From Hymenobacter siberiensis (lineage in GTDB: Bacteria; Bacteroidota; Bacteroidia; Cytophagales; Hymenobacteraceae), in NCBI RefSeq assembly GCF_018967865.2, contig NZ_JAHLZY020000001.1, positions 3,472,001 through 3,536,000 of the forward strand: 64,000 nucleotides of DNA, in the 5' to 3' direction. Each line of letters starts with the position of its first letter. Position 1 is the stretch's first letter. Positions 3,013 to 41,325 of this stretch are shown here, in pieces. The translations under genes and the position numbers were made by a program. Below the pieces are notes generated by a model. It was not told where the DNA came from and ran no database searches. It worked only from the letters and a program-made list of their open reading frames with translations.

Positions 3013-3585
3013 ATGAAAAAGCAACTTTTAAATGTATGCGTACTTGCGGTGCTGGCTTTGGGCTCGTTCTCCTGCAAGAAAGTGTACGATGACAATAGCC
3101 TGGCCCCATTGGACCAAGCCTACGCTACGATTCCGGTTACGGTAACCAATGCCGACTTCTTCGAGCGTTTCTACGTCGTGACGGCTACGGCACCTTCCGG
3201 CGCTTTCTCCATCACGTTCTCGATACCTGCCGACAAAGGCAAAATCAAGGAAATAACCCGCGTTTCGACGGGGACCAGTGGATTGGCCCAGGTGCAAGAT
3301 GGCTCAGCCGCCAAGGCTAGCCTGCTGTATAGCTGGAATGGGTTGACTGGTGCCGCTGCTGGCTCAGTAGTTACCCCTGGCAACGGGAGCAACACCATTA
3401 CTTTCACATCAGACCTTAGTAAGTATACCGCTTACCGCACCCGGGTTGGCACAACACTGGCTCCTATTGCAGCCACTGCATCTACCAACCCACAGGCGCC
3501 TAATCAAATCAATTTTTACTTCTTAATCACGCTGGAAGATGGCACCACCATCATTCCGCCGCTGGTGAGAGTACGTGCGATTTAA
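3013..3585 (+). CDS. Small lipoprotein of the SusCD operon
   Basis: A 190-residue protein with a clear lipoprotein signal (MKKQLLNVCVLAVLALGSFSC). The ATG at 3013 is chosen because it starts the signal peptide; the frame is open further upstream without a sensible N-terminus. It lies 35 nt after susD on the same strand and ends in a strong terminator, so it is the last gene of the SusCD operon. The mature part (start KKVYDDNSLAPLDQ) looks all-beta, with residues 40-120 resembling an extracellular Ig-like fold; I recognise no family. Genes in this position often encode surface glycan-binding or accessory lipoproteins, which is inference here. Confidence 0.8.
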   Translation: MKKQLLNVCVLAVLALGSFSCKKVYDDNSLAPLDQAYATIPVTVTNADFFERFYVVTATAPSGAFSITFSIPADKGKIKEITRVSTGTSGLAQVQDGSAAKASLLYSWNGLTGAAAGSVVTPGNGSNTITFTSDLSKYTAYRTRVGTTLAPIAATASTNPQAPNQINFYFLITLEDGTTIIPPLVRVRAI

Positions 3586-32476: not shown

Positions 32477-33382
32477 ATGATGCCTGTTCCCGAAATTTCT
32501 CCGGCCCTGCTACCGCTGCCCCCCACCCCCACCACCCCGCCCTGGAGCATGCTGGAGGCGGCCGTGGTGCGCGGCAAAACGCGGCTCATTGCCTGCAAAA
32601 ACATGCAGCCGCTGAAGCTGCTGCAACCCGCATCACCCGGCAGCTTTTGCCATGTAGTGCTGAGCAGCTACGGCGGCGGCCTGGTGGCGGGCGACGCTAT
32701 CCGGCTGCGGGTGGCGGTGCTGGCCGGGGCGCAACTGGTGCTGAGCACCCAGGCCAGCACCCGGGTTTTCCGCTCCATTGATGGGGCCGTGGCCGAGCAG
32801 CACACCGTGGGCGAATTGGGCGACGACGCCCTGGCCGTGGTATTCCCCGACCCGGTGGTGCCGCAGGCCGCCAGCCGCTACCGCCAGACGCAGGAGTGGC
32901 ACCTGGCCCCCACGGCGCTCCTGTTGCTGGTCGACTGGTTCCACTCCGGCCGCATGGACCAGGGCGAGCGGTTTGCCTTCACGTCCTTTCAGTCGGAGCT
33001 GCGGGTGCGGGTGGGCGGCCGGCTGGCGCTACTGGATAGGTTCGGCTTTCAACCCGAGGAAAACATAGCCGCCTCGCCGGCCAACTTCGCCGGGTATCAG
33101 AGCTTCTTCTCGGTTTTTTTAGTGGGTAATCCGGAGGATGCGCGCTTTCAGGTTTTAGCCGAAGTGCTGGCGCGGCAGAAGATGCCGGGCGGCACGGGGC
33201 CGCACTTCCGGCTGAGCAGCCAGGAGGTGGTGGTGTCGGTGACGCGGGCGCGTGAGAATGTGTGTCTGCTACGGGCCGCCGCGCACAGCCGCATGGCCTT
33301 GCAGCCGCTCTGCGATGCGCTGCTGGCGGCCCTGGCTAGCGAGGATTTGCTGGGATGGAACCCGTTGGGCAGGAAAATGTAG
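32477..33382 (+). CDS. ureD: Urease accessory protein UreD
   Basis: A 301-residue UreD/UreH-fold protein. Family blocks: LLQPASPGSFCHVVLSSYGG followed by GLVAGDAIRLRVAV, the QLVLSTQASTRVFRS block, and LVDWFHSGRMDQGERFAF. UreD forms the scaffold on the apo-urease through which UreF and UreG deliver nickel. It is on the + strand, apart from the other urease genes (38040-43230, - strand) by the receptor and LytS/LytTR genes. Start ATG at 32477; an internal ATG three bases later is also possible. Confidence 0.92.
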   Translation: MMPVPEISPALLPLPPTPTTPPWSMLEAAVVRGKTRLIACKNMQPLKLLQPASPGSFCHVVLSSYGGGLVAGDAIRLRVAVLAGAQLVLSTQASTRVFRSIDGAVAEQHTVGELGDDALAVVFPDPVVPQAASRYRQTQEWHLAPTALLLLVDWFHSGRMDQGERFAFTSFQSELRVRVGGRLALLDRFGFQPEENIAASPANFAGYQSFFSVFLVGNPEDARFQVLAEVLARQKMPGGTGPHFRLSSQEVVVSVTRARENVCLLRAAAHSRMALQPLCDALLAALASEDLLGWNPLGRKM

Positions 33383-33410
33383 CGCGGACGCTGTAAGTCT
33401 GGGCTGCTCC

Positions 33411-35828
33411 CTAATTCCCTACGCGGCCTTCTTCTTCGGTGCTGGCGGCGGCGTGGCGGGCCTGGGTTTTGCCGCTGCCGATTTTGCAGGTGAAGGCCAG
33501 GGTCAGGCGGCGGCTTTCCCACTGGTTGTTCCAGGTCTGGTTCACGTTGTTATATTGCAGGGTGCTGCGGAAGCGGCTGGTATTGAACACGTCAGCTACT
33601 TTAAGGCTGAGGCTGGCGCGCTCGGCCCAGAGCTGCTTTTTCAGGCCCAGGTTCACCGCGCCGCTGGCTTTGGTGTGGTAGAGGCCCATGACGGCGGGCG
33701 AGCTGTATTCGCCGCCCACCAGCAGCTTGTATTGGCGGGGCAGCACGAAGGTGTGGTTGGAGCTGGCTTCCCAGCTGTAGCTGGCCAGGCGCACCGCCTG
33801 GTTTTCGACCTGGGTAGCCACTTGCGTATAGCTGCCGCTCAGCTGGTTATCCACGCCCCACCACTTCGTGATATCGGTGTGGCCGCCCGAGCTCAGGGTG
33901 AGGGTGCTGGCCTGGGCCAGGTTCTGCGGAGTGCTGGTCGATACCTTGGTCACGTCGTTCTGGGTCACTACAGGGTTCACCGAGTTGGTTTCGTGCAGGT
34001 AGCTCAGGCTCAGGATTTGGAAGTCTTTGTGCAAGTAGTTGAACACGAACGACTGCGAGAGCGAGGGCGCCAGAAACGGGTTGCCCTGCTGCGCGGTATA
34101 GAAGTCGGAGTAGTTGAGGAAAGGATTCAGGCTTTGGTAGTTGGGGCGGGTGATGCGGCGGCTGACGGAGGCGCTCACCTGGTCCTGCTCCGTTATTTTG
34201 TAGCGGGCGAAGGCGCTGGGGAACAGCTGGAAGTAGCGGCGGTCAACCTGTTCGCCGGTAGTGGCCGAGTGGCCGCTGGTCTGGGTTAGCTCGCCGCGCA
34301 GGCCCGCTTTCAGTTCCAGCCGGCCATAGCTGGTGTTCACGCTCAGGTAGCCGGCCGAAATGTGCTCGTCGTACTGGAACTGATTGGTGCGCAGCGCATC
34401 AAGCAGCCATTCGCTGCCGGCCAGCTTATCGAACTGAATGGCGCTGCGCGACGTCACCCAGCTGGTTTTCGCGCCGGTTTCGGCCCGCCACTTGGTGCCG
34501 GCGAAGGGGTGCACGTAGTCGATTTTGGCGGCCCGGATGGTAGTTTCGGACGAGGCCGCGCTGCGCAGCTGCTCGGCCGGGCGGCCCTCTTCGCTGCCGG
34601 CCGCAAACACCAGGTTGCGGAAGCTTTGGTTGCTGGCGCTGGTGTAGCGCACGTAGTCGAGGTCGGCGCTCAGCTCGCGGCCGGTGCTGTCGAGGGCGAA
34701 GCGATAGTAGCCGTTCAGAGCCAGGTTATTATTATTGCTGGTTTCGGGGTTGGTCATTTGGCGGCGGCCGCCGGGGTTGCCGGCCGCGTCGGTGGTCACC
34801 GAGTTGCTGGTGCGCACGGCGTCGGTGGTGGTTAAGCCGCCGCGCAGCTGCAGACCGATGCTCTGGCGGGCGGTCAGGGCCACGTCGGCACCGGTGGCGT
34901 AGGTGCCAGCGTACATGAGCGGCCGCCACACGTTTTCCTGGTTGAAGAGGCTGTCGCGGATGGTGCGAATCATGGTAAGGCGGTTGAAGGAGTTGTAGCG
35001 GCCGCCGTCGAGGCGGGCGAAGAGGCGCACCTTGCCCACGTTGTAGCTCAGGTTGGTGCCGGCCCAGCTTTTCTCGTAGCGGCCCTGGCCCAGGCCCAGG
35101 CTGTAGGTGCCGCTCAGGCCCGGGCGCTGGCTGCGGCGCAGCTTGATGTTGAGCACGCCGGCCGTGCCGGCGGCGTCCAGCGAAGCGGGCGGGTTGGGCA
35201 GCAGCTCAATCTGGCTGATGGCCGAGGCGGGCAGCGACTTCAGGTAATTGCTCAGGGCCGCGCCACTCATGTAAGTCAGCTTGCCATCGATGAGCACGTT
35301 TACGCCGGTACTGCCCCGATACACGATGTTGTCGTCCTTGTCCAGCGTCACGCCGGGAGCTTTTTTCAGGATTTCGAGGGCGGTTTCGCCGGCCGTGTTC
35401 AGGCGCTCCACGTTCAGCACGGTACGGTCGGCGTGCAGCTCCAGTATGGGCGTGGTGCCGGTTACGGTCACTTCCTGCAGGGCGGTGGCGGCGGGGGCCA
35501 GGCGCAGGGCGGGTACGGTCACGGCTTCTTTGCCCACCACGAAAGCGGCGCTACGGGCGCTGGCATAGCTCATCAGCAGGGCCTTCACGCAGTAGCGGCC
35601 GGGCTTGATGCTGGTGAAAGCATAGCCGCCCTGTTCGGTAGTCGTTTGGGAATTGGCAATGGTGGAATCGGGCAATTGCAGCAGCACGGCGGTGGCGAAA
35701 GCCAGCGGCTGGCCGGCGGCATCGAGGATGGAACCGGTGGCGGTGGCCGACTGAGCAGCGGCGCGCTGGGCGAGCCCCGGCAGCACGAGCAGCAGCAGAA
35801 AAAGGCGGAGGCGGAGTAGCGTTTTCAT
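33411..35828 (-). CDS. Outer-membrane beta-barrel receptor (CarboxypepD_reg + plug + OMP barrel)
   Basis: About 805 residues from the ATG that begins the signal peptide (MKTLLRLRLFLLLLVLPGLA). After the signal there is a carboxypeptidase-regulatory-like domain (ATGSILDAAGQPLAFATAVL), a TonB-receptor-like plug (ILKKAPGVTLDKDDNIVYRG, VNVLIDGKLTYMSGAALSNY, IELLPNPPASLDAAGTAGVL) and a barrel of the OMP_b-brl_3 type. These receptors take up ligands or act as transducers in Bacteroidota. It is transcribed divergently from a LytS/LytTR pair whose operator lies between, making it the probable target of that system. Confidence 0.88.
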   Translation of the reverse strand: MKTLLRLRLFLLLLVLPGLAQRAAAQSATATGSILDAAGQPLAFATAVLLQLPDSTIANSQTTTEQGGYAFTSIKPGRYCVKALLMSYASARSAAFVVGKEAVTVPALRLAPAATALQEVTVTGTTPILELHADRTVLNVERLNTAGETALEILKKAPGVTLDKDDNIVYRGSTGVNVLIDGKLTYMSGAALSNYLKSLPASAISQIELLPNPPASLDAAGTAGVLNIKLRRSQRPGLSGTYSLGLGQGRYEKSWAGTNLSYNVGKVRLFARLDGGRYNSFNRLTMIRTIRDSLFNQENVWRPLMYAGTYATGADVALTARQSIGLQLRGGLTTTDAVRTSNSVTTDAAGNPGGRRQMTNPETSNNNNLALNGYYRFALDSTGRELSADLDYVRYTSASNQSFRNLVFAAGSEEGRPAEQLRSAASSETTIRAAKIDYVHPFAGTKWRAETGAKTSWVTSRSAIQFDKLAGSEWLLDALRTNQFQYDEHISAGYLSVNTSYGRLELKAGLRGELTQTSGHSATTGEQVDRRYFQLFPSAFARYKITEQDQVSASVSRRITRPNYQSLNPFLNYSDFYTAQQGNPFLAPSLSQSFVFNYLHKDFQILSLSYLHETNSVNPVVTQNDVTKVSTSTPQNLAQASTLTLSSGGHTDITKWWGVDNQLSGSYTQVATQVENQAVRLASYSWEASSNHTFVLPRQYKLLVGGEYSSPAVMGLYHTKASGAVNLGLKKQLWAERASLSLKVADVFNTSRFRSTLQYNNVNQTWNNQWESRRLTLAFTCKIGSGKTQARHAAASTEEEGRVGN

Positions 35829-35858
35829 CACGAAAAAGGGGTTGGCTGAATGACGAGT

Positions 35859-35866
35859 CAAAGGTG
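35859..35866 (-). promoter_or_regulatory. Candidate -7 box of the receptor gene
   Basis: CACCTTTG on the minus strand, one mismatch from TAnnTTTG. It is 30 nt from the nearest operator repeat (35897), the same distance as on the other side. Confidence 0.55.
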
Positions 35867-35896
35867 AGCGCGCCCATTTTCAGGACAAAAAATAGT

Positions 35897-35976
35897 ATGC
35901 CAACCCGCCAAAACCCGGTGCCAGCGCCCTTTTCGTGCCTTTCCCCGGTTGGCATCCCAAAACCGGGGGTTGGCAT
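35897..35976. promoter_or_regulatory. Mirror-image LytTR-type operator
   Basis: Two copies of GGTTGGCAT on the + strand (35947-35955, 35968-35976), 21 bp apart start to start with a 12-bp spacer, the spacing used by LytTR-domain regulators. A third copy on the minus strand (ATGCCAACC, 35897-35905) has a degenerate partner (GTGCCAGCG, 35918-35926) at the same 21-bp step. The two half-operators face outward toward the two divergent genes. Confidence 0.75.
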
Positions 35977-36006
35977 AAAAAAGGTGCGGGGCGCGGCCGG
36001 GAGCGG

Positions 36007-36014
36007 TAGTTTTG
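36007..36014 (+). promoter_or_regulatory. Candidate -7 box of the lytS-like gene
   Basis: TAGTTTTG, a full match to the Bacteroidota TAnnTTTG element, 27 nt before the ATG at 36041 and 30 nt after the operator. No TTG was found at the usual -33 position, consistent with activator dependence. Confidence 0.65.
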
Positions 36015-36040
36015 GTCACTCAATTATTATCCCCCTACAT

Positions 36041-37066
36041 ATGGCTTCCCTCCTGACCAAATCCGCTCTTCGCTGGCACGTTCTGGGCTGGCTGCTGTAT
36101 GGCGGCTACGAATTCCTGGGCTTATTCCTGCATCATCAGGCGGGACTGCGCATCGGGTTTTGGCTCACGGCCTCGGTCCTGTTTATTCGCTTCGCGGAGT
36201 TCTACCTGTGCTACCTGGTGGTATATCCACGGTTGCTACGCTCGGGCCGCGCCCCGCAGCTAGTGGCGGCGCTGCTGGGTGTGCTGGCGCTCTACATCGG
36301 GGCGCGGGCGCTCATTGAGGAGGTGATTTATCCCGCCGTACTGGGCTTCCACAATTACTCGCCCGACACGAAGGTGTGGTACTACATCTTCGATAATATG
36401 TTTTTTGGCAGCCCCATGATTGTCGTGAGCGCCGCCCTATGGGCCGGCAGCGCGGCCGTGCACCGCGAGCGCGAAAACCGCCAGCTGCGCACCGAAAAGC
36501 GCGCCGCCGAAGTCGCTTTCCTCAAGACCCAAATCAACCCGCACTTCCTCTACAACACCCTCAACATGCTCTTCAGCATGGCCTACCCGGTGGCCAAACC
36601 CGTGGCCAACGCCATCCTGAAACTCTCGGAGCTGATGCGCTACATGCTGCACGAAAGCCCTGACGGCCAAGTCGACCTGGAAAAGGAAATCGAGTACCTG
36701 CACAATTATTTAGCCCTCTACCGCCTGCGCTTCCCCGACAGCTTCCACGTCGATTTCGCCGTGACCGGCGAGCCCGCCGGCCGCCGCGTGGCCCCGCTCG
36801 TCCTCATCCCCTTCGTCGAAAACGCCATCAAGCACGGCGTCCTCGACGACCCCGCTCACCCCGTCCACATTCGCCTGAATATCGAAGGCGAGCAGCTGCA
36901 GTTCGAAGTCGAAAACCAGCGCAGCGACGATAACAAGGATGCTACCACCGGCATCGGCCTACCCAACCTGCGCCGGCGGCTGGCGCTGCTATATCCGGAG
37001 CGGCACACGCTGCACGTTGGGGCGGCGGAAGAGCAGTTTGTGACTTCGTTGCGGCTGGTGGGGTGA
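36041..37066 (+). CDS. LytS-family sensor histidine kinase
   Basis: A 341-residue membrane kinase. The ATG at 36041 is chosen since upstream codons of the same frame contain no family sequence. Four hydrophobic segments occupy residues 10-150. The His_kinase domain follows with the phosphoacceptor His in TQINPHFLYNTLNMLFSMAY, then the N box VLIPFVENAIKHGVLDD and a final G box (TGIGLPNLRRRLALLYPE). It should phosphorylate the LytTR regulator encoded at 37238. A GTCATGC-family palindrome separates the two. Confidence 0.92.
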   Translation: MASLLTKSALRWHVLGWLLYGGYEFLGLFLHHQAGLRIGFWLTASVLFIRFAEFYLCYLVVYPRLLRSGRAPQLVAALLGVLALYIGARALIEEVIYPAVLGFHNYSPDTKVWYYIFDNMFFGSPMIVVSAALWAGSAAVHRERENRQLRTEKRAAEVAFLKTQINPHFLYNTLNMLFSMAYPVAKPVANAILKLSELMRYMLHESPDGQVDLEKEIEYLHNYLALYRLRFPDSFHVDFAVTGEPAGRRVAPLVLIPFVENAIKHGVLDDPAHPVHIRLNIEGEQLQFEVENQRSDDNKDATTGIGLPNLRRRLALLYPERHTLHVGAAEEQFVTSLRLVG

Positions 37067-37074
37067 AGCCGTTT

Positions 37075-37187
37075 GTCATCCTGAGCGCAGCGAAAGACCT
37101 TATTACCGATGAACAGTTTGCGGTAAATAGTTGGATTAGTATCCATCGTTCGACCGTGATAAGGTCCTTCGCTGCGCTCAGGATGAC
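37075..37187. repeat. Palindromic intergenic repeat, GTCATGC family (divergent copy 3)
   Basis: Arms GTCATCCTGAGCGCAGCGAA and the inverse ending GCTCAGGATGAC, about 30 bp each, with an AT-rich loop of about 50 bp. The GAGCGCAGCGAA core is shared with the other copies, but CATCCTG replaces CATGC. It separates the sensor and regulator genes of one two-component system. Confidence 0.8.
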
Positions 37188-37237
37188 AGATGGATTGCTG
37201 CCTGCCGTTCTTTACCCTTCCTAAACTCCCCCCGCCC

Positions 37238-37981
37238 ATGATTCGCTGCCTCGCCGTCGATGACGAAGCCCCTGCCCTGCTCATTCTCGCCGATTACATC
37301 GGCCAGCTGCCCTTCCTCACGCTGGTGGGCACCACCACCAACCCCATCGAAGCCCTGACGCTGGTGCAGCAGGGCCAGGTCGATTTGGTGTTTCTCGACA
37401 TCCAGATGCCCAAGCTCACTGGCCTGCAGTTCCTTAAGCTGGCCGGCAACCGCTGCAAAGTCGTCCTCACCACCGCCTACCCCGAATACGCGCTCGAAGG
37501 CTACGAAAACGACGTGGTGGACTACCTGCTCAAGCCCATTTCCTTCGAGCGGTTTTTCAAAGCGGCGCAAAAGGCCCTGGCGCTGCTGCCCGGCCCCGCG
37601 CCGGAGCCCGCCGCGCCCGCCCAGCTGGCAGCGCCGGTTTCGGCCGTGCTGGCCCCGCCGCCCACCGGCCATATGTTTGTGAAAGGCGAGAGCAAGAACA
37701 AGTTTCTGCGCGTCAACTACGCCGACATTCTCTACATCGAGGGGCTAAGCAACTACGTGTCCATCCACCTGCCCACGCAGCGCGTGGTGACGTATCAAAC
37801 CCTGAAGGAGCTGGCCGAGACGCTGCCGCAGCCGCCGTTTCTACGGGTGCACAAGTCCTTTATCGTGTCGCTCGACAAGATTCGCATGGTCGATGGCAAC
37901 ACGATTTATATTCAGGACAAGGAGATTCCGGTGGGCGAAACGTATCGAGAAATGCTCTACCGGCAGATTCGGGAGCAGTAG
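37238..37981 (+). CDS. LytTR-family response regulator
   Basis: A 247-residue regulator. Receiver domain 1-120: acidic pocket VDDEAP, phosphoacceptor Asp in LVFLDIQMPKLTG, Lys in VDYLLKPISFERF. A proline/alanine linker is followed by a LytTR DNA-binding domain (residues 145-247: FVKGESKNKFLRVNYADILY, NYVSIHLPTQRVVTYQTLKE, LRVHKSFIVSLDKI). It is expected to bind the 21-bp-spaced repeats at 35897-35976. The ATG at 37238 fits the receiver start. The stop TAG overlaps the first bases of the following palindrome. Confidence 0.94.
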   Translation: MIRCLAVDDEAPALLILADYIGQLPFLTLVGTTTNPIEALTLVQQGQVDLVFLDIQMPKLTGLQFLKLAGNRCKVVLTTAYPEYALEGYENDVVDYLLKPISFERFFKAAQKALALLPGPAPEPAAPAQLAAPVSAVLAPPPTGHMFVKGESKNKFLRVNYADILYIEGLSNYVSIHLPTQRVVTYQTLKELAETLPQPPFLRVHKSFIVSLDKIRMVDGNTIYIQDKEIPVGETYREMLYRQIREQ

Positions 37982-38040
37982 CGCGGACTTTTAGTCCGCG
38001 AGTGAACGGGATTAACTCACGGACTAAAAGTCCGCGCTAC
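37978..38040. repeat. Hairpin element, GCGGACTTTTAGTCCGC family, copy 1
   Basis: Double palindrome: gcggacttttagtccgc on the left, its inverse on the right, with outer ends gtagcgc / gcgctac. Sits between convergent lytTR and ureG; its left end carries the TAG stop of the regulator and its right end touches the ureG stop. Confidence 0.88.
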
Positions 38041-38792
38041 TACCGCCTATCCTCGCGCACGGCGGCCAGCGCCCGCGCCTTAGCGGCTTTGATGTGGCCG
38101 ATAATCTCCTCCAACCCAAACCCATCCACGGCCCGCGCAAACAGGAACGGGCCGTCACCGCGCATCTTCTTCGAGTCCCGTTCCATCACGCCGAGGTCGG
38201 CTTTAATCAAGTCTTTAAGGTCAATTTTATTGATAATGAGCAGGTCCGACTGCGTGATACCCGGCCCGCCCTTGCGCGGGATTTTATCCCCGCCCGACAC
38301 GTCGATAACGTAGATGGAATAGTCCACCAGCTCGCGGCTGAAGTGGGCGGCCAGGTTGTCGCCGCCGCTCTCCACGAATAAAAAATCCAGCTTGAATTCG
38401 AAGCGCTGCATCAGTCCTTCGAGGGCGTCCATGTTCAGCGAAATATCCTCGCGGATGGCCGCGTGCGGGCAGCCGCCGGTTTCCACGCCCACAATCCGGT
38501 CTGCGCTCAGGGCGCTATTCCGGATGAGGAATTCAGCGTCTTCGCGGGTGAAAATGTCGTTGGTGACCACGCCCAGCTCGAATTCGTGGCGCAGGCGCTC
38601 GCACAGGGATTTCAGCAGGGCCGTTTTGCCCGTGCCCACCGGCCCGCCGATGCCCACGGTGAAGGCCCGCTTGCGAAAATTGCGGTAGGACGGCAAGCGG
38701 CGCGTTTCGCGCTCGTTGAAGTCGCCGGGCGATTCGTAGGCTTCGTGCTGGTGGCCGTGGAGAAGCAGGGCGAGTTTTTCGACAAAAGCCAT
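38040..38792 (-). CDS. ureG: Urease accessory GTPase UreG
   Basis: A 250-residue SIMIBI-class GTPase. Features: P-loop [15 protein letters not shown], metal-binding CPH in [15 protein letters not shown], and the guanine-specificity NKID. It couples GTP hydrolysis to nickel insertion into urease. The N-terminal tail has extra histidines (HGHQHEA, residues 12-18), which could store or bind nickel. No ureE, the usual nickel-delivering metallochaperone, is in the cluster. Hairpin elements border the gene on both sides. Confidence 0.96.
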
Positions 38793-38797
38793 GAGTA

Positions 38798-38865
38798 GTA
38801 GCGCGGACTTTTAGTCCGCGGATGTGTGGATTGATTTGGACTCACGGACTAAAAGTCCGCGCTAC
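38798..38865. repeat. Hairpin element, GCGGACTTTTAGTCCGC family, copy 2
   Basis: Same outer ends (gtagcgc / gcgctac) and inner palindromes as copy 1, centre about 25 bp. It fills the gap between ureF and ureG; its right end lies 1 nt from the ureF stop. Confidence 0.9.
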
Positions 38866-38866
38866 A

Positions 38867-39538
38867 TTAGTTCTGGAAAAGCTTGGAATAAATATCCTCG
38901 TGCAGCACCTGCGCCACATCGAGCATAAACGCCGAGCGCACGGCTTCTCCATATCCTTTCCCTGCCTGCGCCGCCAGAATATGCTCGAACACTGCGTAGA
39001 AATCGTGTTGCAGCTGGTGCCCCTCCAGCGGCCCCAGCAACCCGAGGCGAATGGCGGCGCTGAGCTGGTCGCGCAGCAGCATGTGCAGGTACATGGCCTG
39101 TAGCTCGTCTAGCGCGAAACCTGCCCGCTGCAAGGCCAGCGTGAAAACCAGCGTGAAATGCGGCGGAGTTTCCTGCGTGGCAAACCAGTTGGTAATGCAT
39201 TCCAATTCGGCTTCCGGGTAGAAGGTGGCCAGCAGTTTCAGCCAGTTGCGGCCCTGCACGGCGCTGGCTTTGTAGAGGCCAGGCACTAGGAGTTGCGCGT
39301 TGTATTCTTCGGCGAGGGTTAGAAATTTGGGGCTTTTTTCGGTAAGCTGGAAGGCGGAATGCATGAACGGCAGCTCGACGCTGCCGGCCTGCTGCAGGTA
39401 GGCATACAGGTACTGGCGCAAGTCGCCCGAGGAGCGGAGCAGGCCGAAGGTGTGGCTGCTTTCCAGGCCGTAGGAATAGGCGAACGAGCCGGTGGGCAGG
39501 GCCGAATCGACGAGGTGCAGGAGGCGGGCGAAGTGCAT
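38867..39538 (-). CDS. ureF: Urease accessory protein UreF
   Basis: A 223-residue all-helical protein. Family signature at the N-terminus: LLHLVDSALPTGSFAYSYGL followed by ESSHTFGL, and internal EEYNAQLLVPGLYKASAVQG. UreF joins UreD and UreG in the activation complex and acts as the GTPase checkpoint. It is in an operon with ureC (upstream) and ureG (downstream), each junction filled by a hairpin of the same family. Confidence 0.93.
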   Translation of the reverse strand: MHFARLLHLVDSALPTGSFAYSYGLESSHTFGLLRSSGDLRQYLYAYLQQAGSVELPFMHSAFQLTEKSPKFLTLAEEYNAQLLVPGLYKASAVQGRNWLKLLATFYPEAELECITNWFATQETPPHFTLVFTLALQRAGFALDELQAMYLHMLLRDQLSAAIRLGLLGPLEGHQLQHDFYAVFEHILAAQAGKGYGEAVRSAFMLDVAQVLHEDIYSKLFQN

Positions 39539-39543
39539 GGGAT

Positions 39544-39605
39544 GTAGCGCGGACTTTTAGTCCGCGGGTGGATTGGCTGACTCGCGGACTAAAAGTCCGC
39601 GCTAC
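39544..39605. repeat. Hairpin element, GCGGACTTTTAGTCCGC family, copy 3
   Basis: Third copy, between ureC and ureF, with gtagcgc / gcgctac ends. The ureC stop begins 2 nt beyond the right end. A decayed fourth copy, gcgtggccttttagtccgcg, lies near 58605-58625. Confidence 0.9.
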
Positions 39606-39606
39606 A

Positions 39607-41325
<1,719 letters not shown>

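Follow-up and report, generated by a model that had tools for sequence, protein, structure and literature searches.

The intergenic region between positions 35859 and 36014 of the window, by which we mean the whole 64,000-nucleotide stretch of Hymenobacter siberiensis DNA that was analysed, is very probably a divergent LytTR operator, through which one response regulator activates two transcription units: the gene of an outer-membrane protein on the left, and the regulator's own kinase operon on the right.

A pair of repeats on each strand

Three genes make up the locus. On the minus strand, 33411..35828 encodes an outer-membrane beta-barrel protein of 805 amino acids (PF14905, with plug and carboxypeptidase-regulatory-like domains), the divergent target that we call the receptor. 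On the plus strand, a sensor histidine kinase (36041..37066, PF06580, 341 amino acids) is followed in the list of open reading frames by a response regulator with a LytTR DNA-binding domain (37238..37981, PF00072 and PF04397, 247 amino acids). The starts adopted are the ATG at 35828 for the receptor and the ATG at 36041 for the kinase; the list gives longer frames with other start codons. The product of 37238 is an ordinary receiver-LytTR protein: its receiver domain scores 58.0 bits against a cut-off of 30.2, and its LytTR domain 68.7 bits against a cut-off of 22.6. When the latter is aligned with the AgrA structures, FLRVHKS stands opposite FFRCHNS. The conserved motif FhRhHRS, to which PMC4227749 ascribes DNA contacts, is present in the regulator, with K for R at one place, where AgrA has N. 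The best NCBIfam match is BtsR (NF008677), at 110.2 bits, below the equivalog cut-off of 246.

The trio sits within a urease cluster (32477-41325), with ureD on one side and ureG, ureF and ureC on the other; these names come from reading, and ureC is confirmed by PF00449. The receptor has matches at E<=1e-150 in 30 of the 120 genus genomes, and a functional link to urease or nickel was rejected: positions compared by hand put ureC at most about 11 kb from the kinase in just 11 of these 30 receptor-bearing genomes, and a urease hit is absent in 6, figures in which contig breaks may hide some linkage.

The initial annotation had described repeats with 21-bp steps and 30-nt gaps on both strands, and a direct reading of the sequence finds this description exact. 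The right arm, on the plus strand, holds the word GGTTGGCAT twice, as a distal half-site at 35947..35955 and a proximal one at 35968..35976, with a step of 21 bp and a spacer of 12. It continues with an A/T tract, AAAAAA at 35977..35982 (AATAAA and similar in other loci; 54 right arms together give the tract a mean of 1.34 bits per column), and ends with the -7-like box TAGTTTTG of the kinase-regulator promoter, read directly at 36007..36014 on the plus strand. The left arm, on the minus strand, has its LytTR-type proximal half-site GGTTGGCAT at 35897..35905 and, with the same 21-bp step, the distal half-site CGCTGGCAC at 35918..35926, which has three mismatches with respect to GGTTGGCAT; the -7-like box of the receptor promoter, CACCTTTG, is read directly at 35859..35866 on the same strand, and the same letters are found in 34 of 54 left arms. 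Each box is exactly 30 nt from the nearest repeat. The three copies of GGTTGGCAT are recovered both by direct reading and by the arm model, a position-specific description of half-site, spacer, second half-site, 30-nt gap and box. Four loci per strand served as seed for this model, and each strand was searched independently of the other. The two distal half-sites are separated by a centre of 20 bp (35927..35946), which becomes an "inner" spacing of 16 in the 11-mer frame of the arm model, and whose length is helically phased across relatives. The arms are imperfect mirror images, because the spacers at 35908-35915 and 35957-35964 both read CCAAAACC on the plus strand; many receptor-type loci have the like, and these spacers may serve as a further contact or site.

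The word alone says little. It has four exact copies in the window, both strands counted, three of them within 80 bp here, and with at most one mismatch it is found 32 times, against 19.7 expected, a count that none of 100 shuffles reaches: it is only mildly over-represented, and it is the geometry that is telling. A step-21 pair of 8+8 letters with zero mismatches occurs once in the 4.83-Mb genome; at two mismatches or fewer there are 16 hits, and at the other 14 hit loci the arm-model score is at most -2.3, versus 77.1 at this locus. A pattern fitted afterwards to both pairs has four genome hits at two mismatches or fewer, and its zero-mismatch hits are these two pairs only. Neither genome search turned up these letters at a second place within an arm, and a genome-wide regulon bearing these letters was rejected, as the other pattern hits have no arm.

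Arms, regulators and exchangeable neighbours

From the kinase search of the genus we took the 59 strongest matches, down to E 3.9e-87: 30 automatic loci and 29 fetched ones, 28 of the latter re-fetched at greater length. The 60 upstream regions compared are those of the 30 receptor-type kinases, of 28 of the other 29, and of two loci outside the genus (L070 and L071); 12 regions were scanned over 1,400 bases and the others over 420. Locus L150, on a short contig, stays outside the scored set, and its arms were seen by eye.

At a lag of 21, these regions contain 105 nine-letter windows with at least 8/9 matches, against 0-31 at the other lags from 10 to 44. On the plus strand the best gap between pair and box is 30 nt, seen in 24/60 loci at an identity of at least 7/9, when the control lags, 18-20 and 22-24, reach at most 3/60 loci at any gap. 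Lag 21 stands out again on the minus strand, with a broader gap optimum of 28-35 nt and at most 11/60 loci at one gap. Both arms score above zero in 55 of the 60 regions (27/30 receptor-type, 28/28 others), with scores from 2.5 to 84.2 and a median of 64.6, for a model that is trained on the same loci it scores and for loci that share ancestry, so that these counts are not independent. The maxima over 53 downstream segments, 198,501 bases in all, are -6.2 and -14.5, and hits outside the training set reach 47.1 (L195), 46.9 (L196) and 49.4 (left arm of L185).

Five regions lack both arms in the model scan. A longer scan recovers both in L047, reading by eye recovers both in L070, and L048 and L071 have the right arm only. 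In the fifth (L055/L200, genome G010) the right arm is degraded; the receptor gene there consists of two adjacent frames, and the locus is perhaps a decaying module.

Comparing the intergenic region of relatives that have the same trio, as the initial annotation had proposed, finds the geometry kept though the letters drift; the outcome that it had named as refuting, repeats lost where the trio persists, did not arise. With both arms present in 55/60 upstream regions, its idea that one regulator may activate the receptor gene and its own kinase operon is well supported. The half-site letters vary between species, while step, gap, A/T tract and boxes are kept. GGTTGGCAT occupies both plus-strand sites in the window's species and in one close relative (L029, genome G009); other receptor-type species have TTTCGCAT, TTTCACAT, GTGGCAT and similar, and the more distant group that has no receptor, with kinases about 47-55% identical, has mostly GTTGGGAT, then AATAAA and similar.

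The kinase-regulator pair is the constant partner of the arms, and the divergent gene the part that varies. In the receptor group this gene encodes the outer-membrane protein. At 27 of the 28 loci of the non-receptor group, a gene of some 290-370 codons opens with an ATG 25-90 nt past the left box, which is what a genuine promoter would lead one to expect; none was found at the remaining locus, L180. The 27 products are DUF5694 proteins (PF18950) in 24 cases and DUF5700 proteins (PF18958) in three, all over the cut-offs. Genome G035 has a kinase 62% identical and a DUF5694 gene in the place of the receptor, and keeps both arms.

In some genomes receptor and pair are apart. In G106 and G107 the receptor, 55% identical, is away from the pair: neither kinase nor regulator is matched in G106 over the 8.2 kb before and the 5.4 kb after it, or in G107 on its 7.7-kb contig. 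A single arm remains at the receptor promoter (L195 and L196). The two arms agree at 60/71 bases, so that they may stem from one event. Conversely, in G042 (L197) neither receptor nor left arm was found, and a right arm scoring 64.7 stays before the kinase operon. Each side, in these cases, has only its own arm. When an extra gene stands at the head of the kinase operon, the right arm precedes that gene (TlpA-like in L185 and L197; others in L036, L041, L052 and L053). These operon-head genes, including that of L180, encode a TlpA-like thioredoxin protein, by eye a DUF2807-type protein, and also a membrane protein that has no Pfam match.

These exchanges bear directly on the suggestion, made in the initial annotation, of a signalling loop in which the receptor itself signals to the kinase and the operator closes the circle. 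By a comparison of positions made by hand, a few kilobases at most separate receptor and kinase in 28 of the 30 genomes that have a receptor match, as such a loop would have it. However, the same operator and related pairs are found beside DUF5694 or DUF5700 genes, or with no receptor at all; the receptor is unlinked in the G106 and G107 sequence examined; and a Pfam scan of both proteins finds no domain that would suggest contact between them. The loop is unsupported, and we regard it as unlikely.

The arms could also be bound by a transcription factor other than the adjacent LytTR regulator. Such a reading draws on the variation of half-site letters between species, and on the fact that we deduce binding by the regulator from sequence; but the arms adjoin this kinase-regulator pair whatever the divergent gene, and direct-repeat spacers of 10-13 bp are LytTR geometry according to PMC6193735 and PMC11347149. 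The genome has ten LytTR matches in all, and the arm model finds no match at the nine other loci, where its best score is -21.5, a further point against another factor, to which we give very little credence.

One of the nine loci (L210, minus strand near 3241) has a 21-step pair of other letters, CTGGGCGAT / CTGGCCGAT, followed after 29 nt by TAGCTTTG and further on by a 394-codon frame; 15 rounds of shuffling the nine stretches yielded no such hit. The pair is perhaps the autoregulatory site of that LytTR system, and its different letters at the same step fit each LytTR regulator having letters of its own. Arms of the letters described here thus go with the regulator at 37238, one arm per transcription unit, and the geometry of step and gap may be general for LytTR operons in this genome.

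A search for the regulator in 241 genomes of the order gave a match at E<=1e-60 in 42, and 20 loci from outside the genus were fetched. Both arms were found in seven of them (L211-L216 and L219) and not found in the other 13; both strands were detected automatically in L215 and L219, and the other five needed reading by eye. Here the half-sites read GTTGGTCGA and similar, or GTTCGTCAT in L219, at an unchanged step and gap. The receptor is present in L211, at 50% identity, and the divergent proteins of L212-L216 are DUF5694, four over the cut-off and L212 just under it (27.3 versus 27.5 bits). Hits on one strand only, in L217, L223, L227, L228 and L229, were not counted as operators, nor was a plus-strand hit at another place in L214. 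The remaining kinase relatives from other Bacteroidota (L072-L136) were submitted, together with L070 and L071, to a search for lag 21 plus gap: a plus-strand hit occurs in 11/67 regions, where plain shuffles (a rate of 3.4% among 1,340) would lead one to expect about 2.3, and a minus-strand hit in 4/67. Several of these hits resemble AT-rich or shared coding sequence, and L070 and L071 alone were judged convincing.

The distance between the arms

The two arms were located independently, with their separation free to vary. The spacing set has 63 loci, 55 of the genus and 8 read by eye, and leaves out L047, L048, L055 and L071 (the spacing of L047, found after the counts were made, is 16). It does include L219, which has pairs on both strands beside a divergent gene of uncertain identity, and whose spacing of 61 is the least well phased. 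The spacings fall into the classes 16-18, 26-28, 36-39, 49, 58, 61 and 69 bp: at a period of 10.5 bp the Rayleigh length comes to 0.91 when every locus is counted, and to 0.81 when each of the 14 distinct values is counted once. As a control, the distance from the -7 box to the kinase gives 0.23 at the same period.

On a kinase-regulator tree of 62 loci, from which the window's own species (L028) is excluded, as it is from the counts out of 54, there are 25 inferred spacing changes: 13 of 1-2 bp, and 12 larger ones, of 10, 10, 11, 11, 11, 11, 20, 21, 22, 42, 43 and 53 bp. All 12 are within 1 bp of a multiple of 10.5, for which the chance is 6e-9 at 0.207 each, a value that assumes independent changes and a correct tree, and that was obtained with one tree and one parsimony scheme. 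We read this pattern as a pressure to keep both arms in register, and it suggests a register-locked binding across both promoters.

There is another explanation, to which we lean less than to its opposite, though it is a serious one: two independent LytTR promoters share an intergenic region, and the periodicity comes from the gain and loss of 21-bp half-sites and from ancestry. Single arms do exist, at the unlinked receptors of L195 and L196, and before the kinase operon, right arm only, in L197 and L071. Moreover, a third half-site (GGTCGTCC, GGTTATCC and similar, among L166-L194) precedes the right distal site by 21 bp; in its GTYRTC form it is present in 14/28 non-receptor loci with an inner spacing of at least 26, always at the same offset. 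Given this third site, spacing changes near 21 and 42 may be the gain or loss of a unit, which could cover the five changes of 20-22 and 42-43 bp among the 12, and the right distal half-site of L179, L186 and L189, which itself has the form GTCGTCC, fits the loss of one unit. However, six of the 12 are changes of 10 or 11 bp and one is of 53 bp, lengths that half-site units cannot yield and in which phase is nevertheless kept, so that gain and loss may not account for them. The control distance, from box to kinase, shows no such period either, with its 0.23 against 0.81 for the distinct inter-arm values.

The preferred reading, that of arms held in register, has a wider form: a portable two-promoter switch of the Cytophagales, in which four or five half-sites in helical register would be occupied by one cooperative regulator complex. 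Feedback and output would fire together, and the outputs, whether outer-membrane receptor, DUF5694 or DUF5700, would be swapped as the letters drift. We put this wider form at close to, and slightly under, an even chance.

A proposed two-promoter switch and its precedents

The mechanism that we propose builds on steps for which the sequence itself speaks: the exact geometry, its conservation, its tracking with the kinase-regulator pair, the separation of arms along with their genes, and the register. The phosphorylated 37238 regulator would bind each direct-repeat pair as two protomers, on one face of the helix. The bound pairs would lie immediately before two promoters with a -7 box but scant sign of a -33 element, and would activate the outer-membrane protein gene to the left and the regulator's own kinase-regulator operon to the right, the latter amounting to positive feedback. 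Because the distances between the arms differ by whole helical turns, the protomers of one arm probably touch those of the other, or a partner common to both, and the two promoters would then switch together. From the same sequences we infer the binding to DNA, activation rather than repression, the dependence on phosphorylation, cooperation across the centre, and a signal.

A pair that stands 30 nt upstream of the -7 box would have its centre near -56. TTG occurs in the -33 region of 3/54 right arms and 12/54 left arms, which means that transcription from the left promoter may in part be independent of the activator. For a large part of the non-receptor group (L167-L184) the -7 box is only about a dozen nucleotides before the kinase frame, which suggests a leaderless transcript or one with a very short leader.

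Position and weak -33 region together make the arms look like activator sites, as in the promoters of AgrA and of the LytTR Regulatory Systems (LRS). The opposite role, that of repressor sites shutting both promoters until a signal arrives, has a model in CoxC, a LytTR repressor with direct repeats. Yet according to PMC11347149 the CoxC repeats overlap the -35 box, whereas here 30 nt lie between the last repeat and the -7 box, a position near that of activating LytTR sites, namely the proximal AgrA repeats centred near -60 (PMC4227749) and the LRS repeats, mostly 10 bp before the -35 element (PMC6193735); the scarcity of -33 elements also argues against repression, which we consider quite improbable.

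The closest precedent for this layout is the agr locus of Staphylococcus. There, according to PMC4227749, the divergent promoters P2 and P3 each have upstream LytTR direct repeats bound by AgrA, with the proximal repeats centred near -60 and SarA binding between repeats; one promoter drives the operon of the regulator, and the other the effector. A divergent layout that drives a target and the regulator's own operon therefore has a precedent, with divergent repeats of which one set stands before the regulator's operon, a likeness of sequence layout. The differences are that the effector is the gene of an outer-membrane or other protein, not RNAIII; that the promoters look to be of the Bacteroidota -7 type; that the kinase is a PF06580 protein; and that the spacing between arms is helically phased over many species. 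On this comparison the locus appears to work like agr P2/P3, yet is not an agr locus.

Other systems share fewer traits. The likeness to BtsSR and YpdAB, pairs of LytS-type kinase and LytTR regulator in E. coli, lies in the LytTR domain and in BtsR as best NCBIfam match. Those systems use direct repeats and control a transporter gene elsewhere; we know of no divergent mirror operator in them. In LRS, as presented in PMC6193735, a LytTR regulator is paired with a membrane inhibitor protein, autoregulatory direct repeats lie about 10-11 bp upstream of a -35/-33 element, and LRS-like operons of Bacteroides have TATCTTTG -7 boxes; the word "divergent" does not occur in the main text of that paper. 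Here, by contrast, a PF06580 histidine kinase precedes a receiver-LytTR regulator, which places the locus outside the LRS. To our knowledge, LRS have no histidine kinase. Finally, the three direct repeats of CoxC and RcoM, at intervals of two helical turns, recall the third half-site of many non-receptor loci. According to PMC11347149, these regulators have a sensor domain fused to LytTR, and the CoxC site overlaps the -35 box and represses; the present regulator differs by its receiver domain, and its repeats by their place 30 nt upstream of a -7 box.

Our searches of the open-licence literature showed neither a LytTR binding site described for this order nor an account of this operator, and nothing on DUF5694. 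What is new here is that the operator is widely conserved while its outputs are exchanged, that its arms have separated naturally in some genomes, that their spacing follows a rule of register, and that many loci have a third half-site.

A recognisable operator, with its 21-bp step, its gap near 30 bp and its spacing rule, makes targets predictable in many genomes. It also connects one kind of sensor with an outer-membrane receptor family and with DUF5694 and DUF5700, two uncharacterised families. Whether one regulator couples agr P2 and P3 into one switch is, as far as we know, still an open question, and the loci described here offer a direct test case of whether one regulator ties two divergent promoters together in this way. 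Most likely, to judge from the arrangement of sites and genes, the paired sites let one regulator switch on its own sensor-regulator genes along with a neighbouring gene for an outer-membrane or secreted-type protein.
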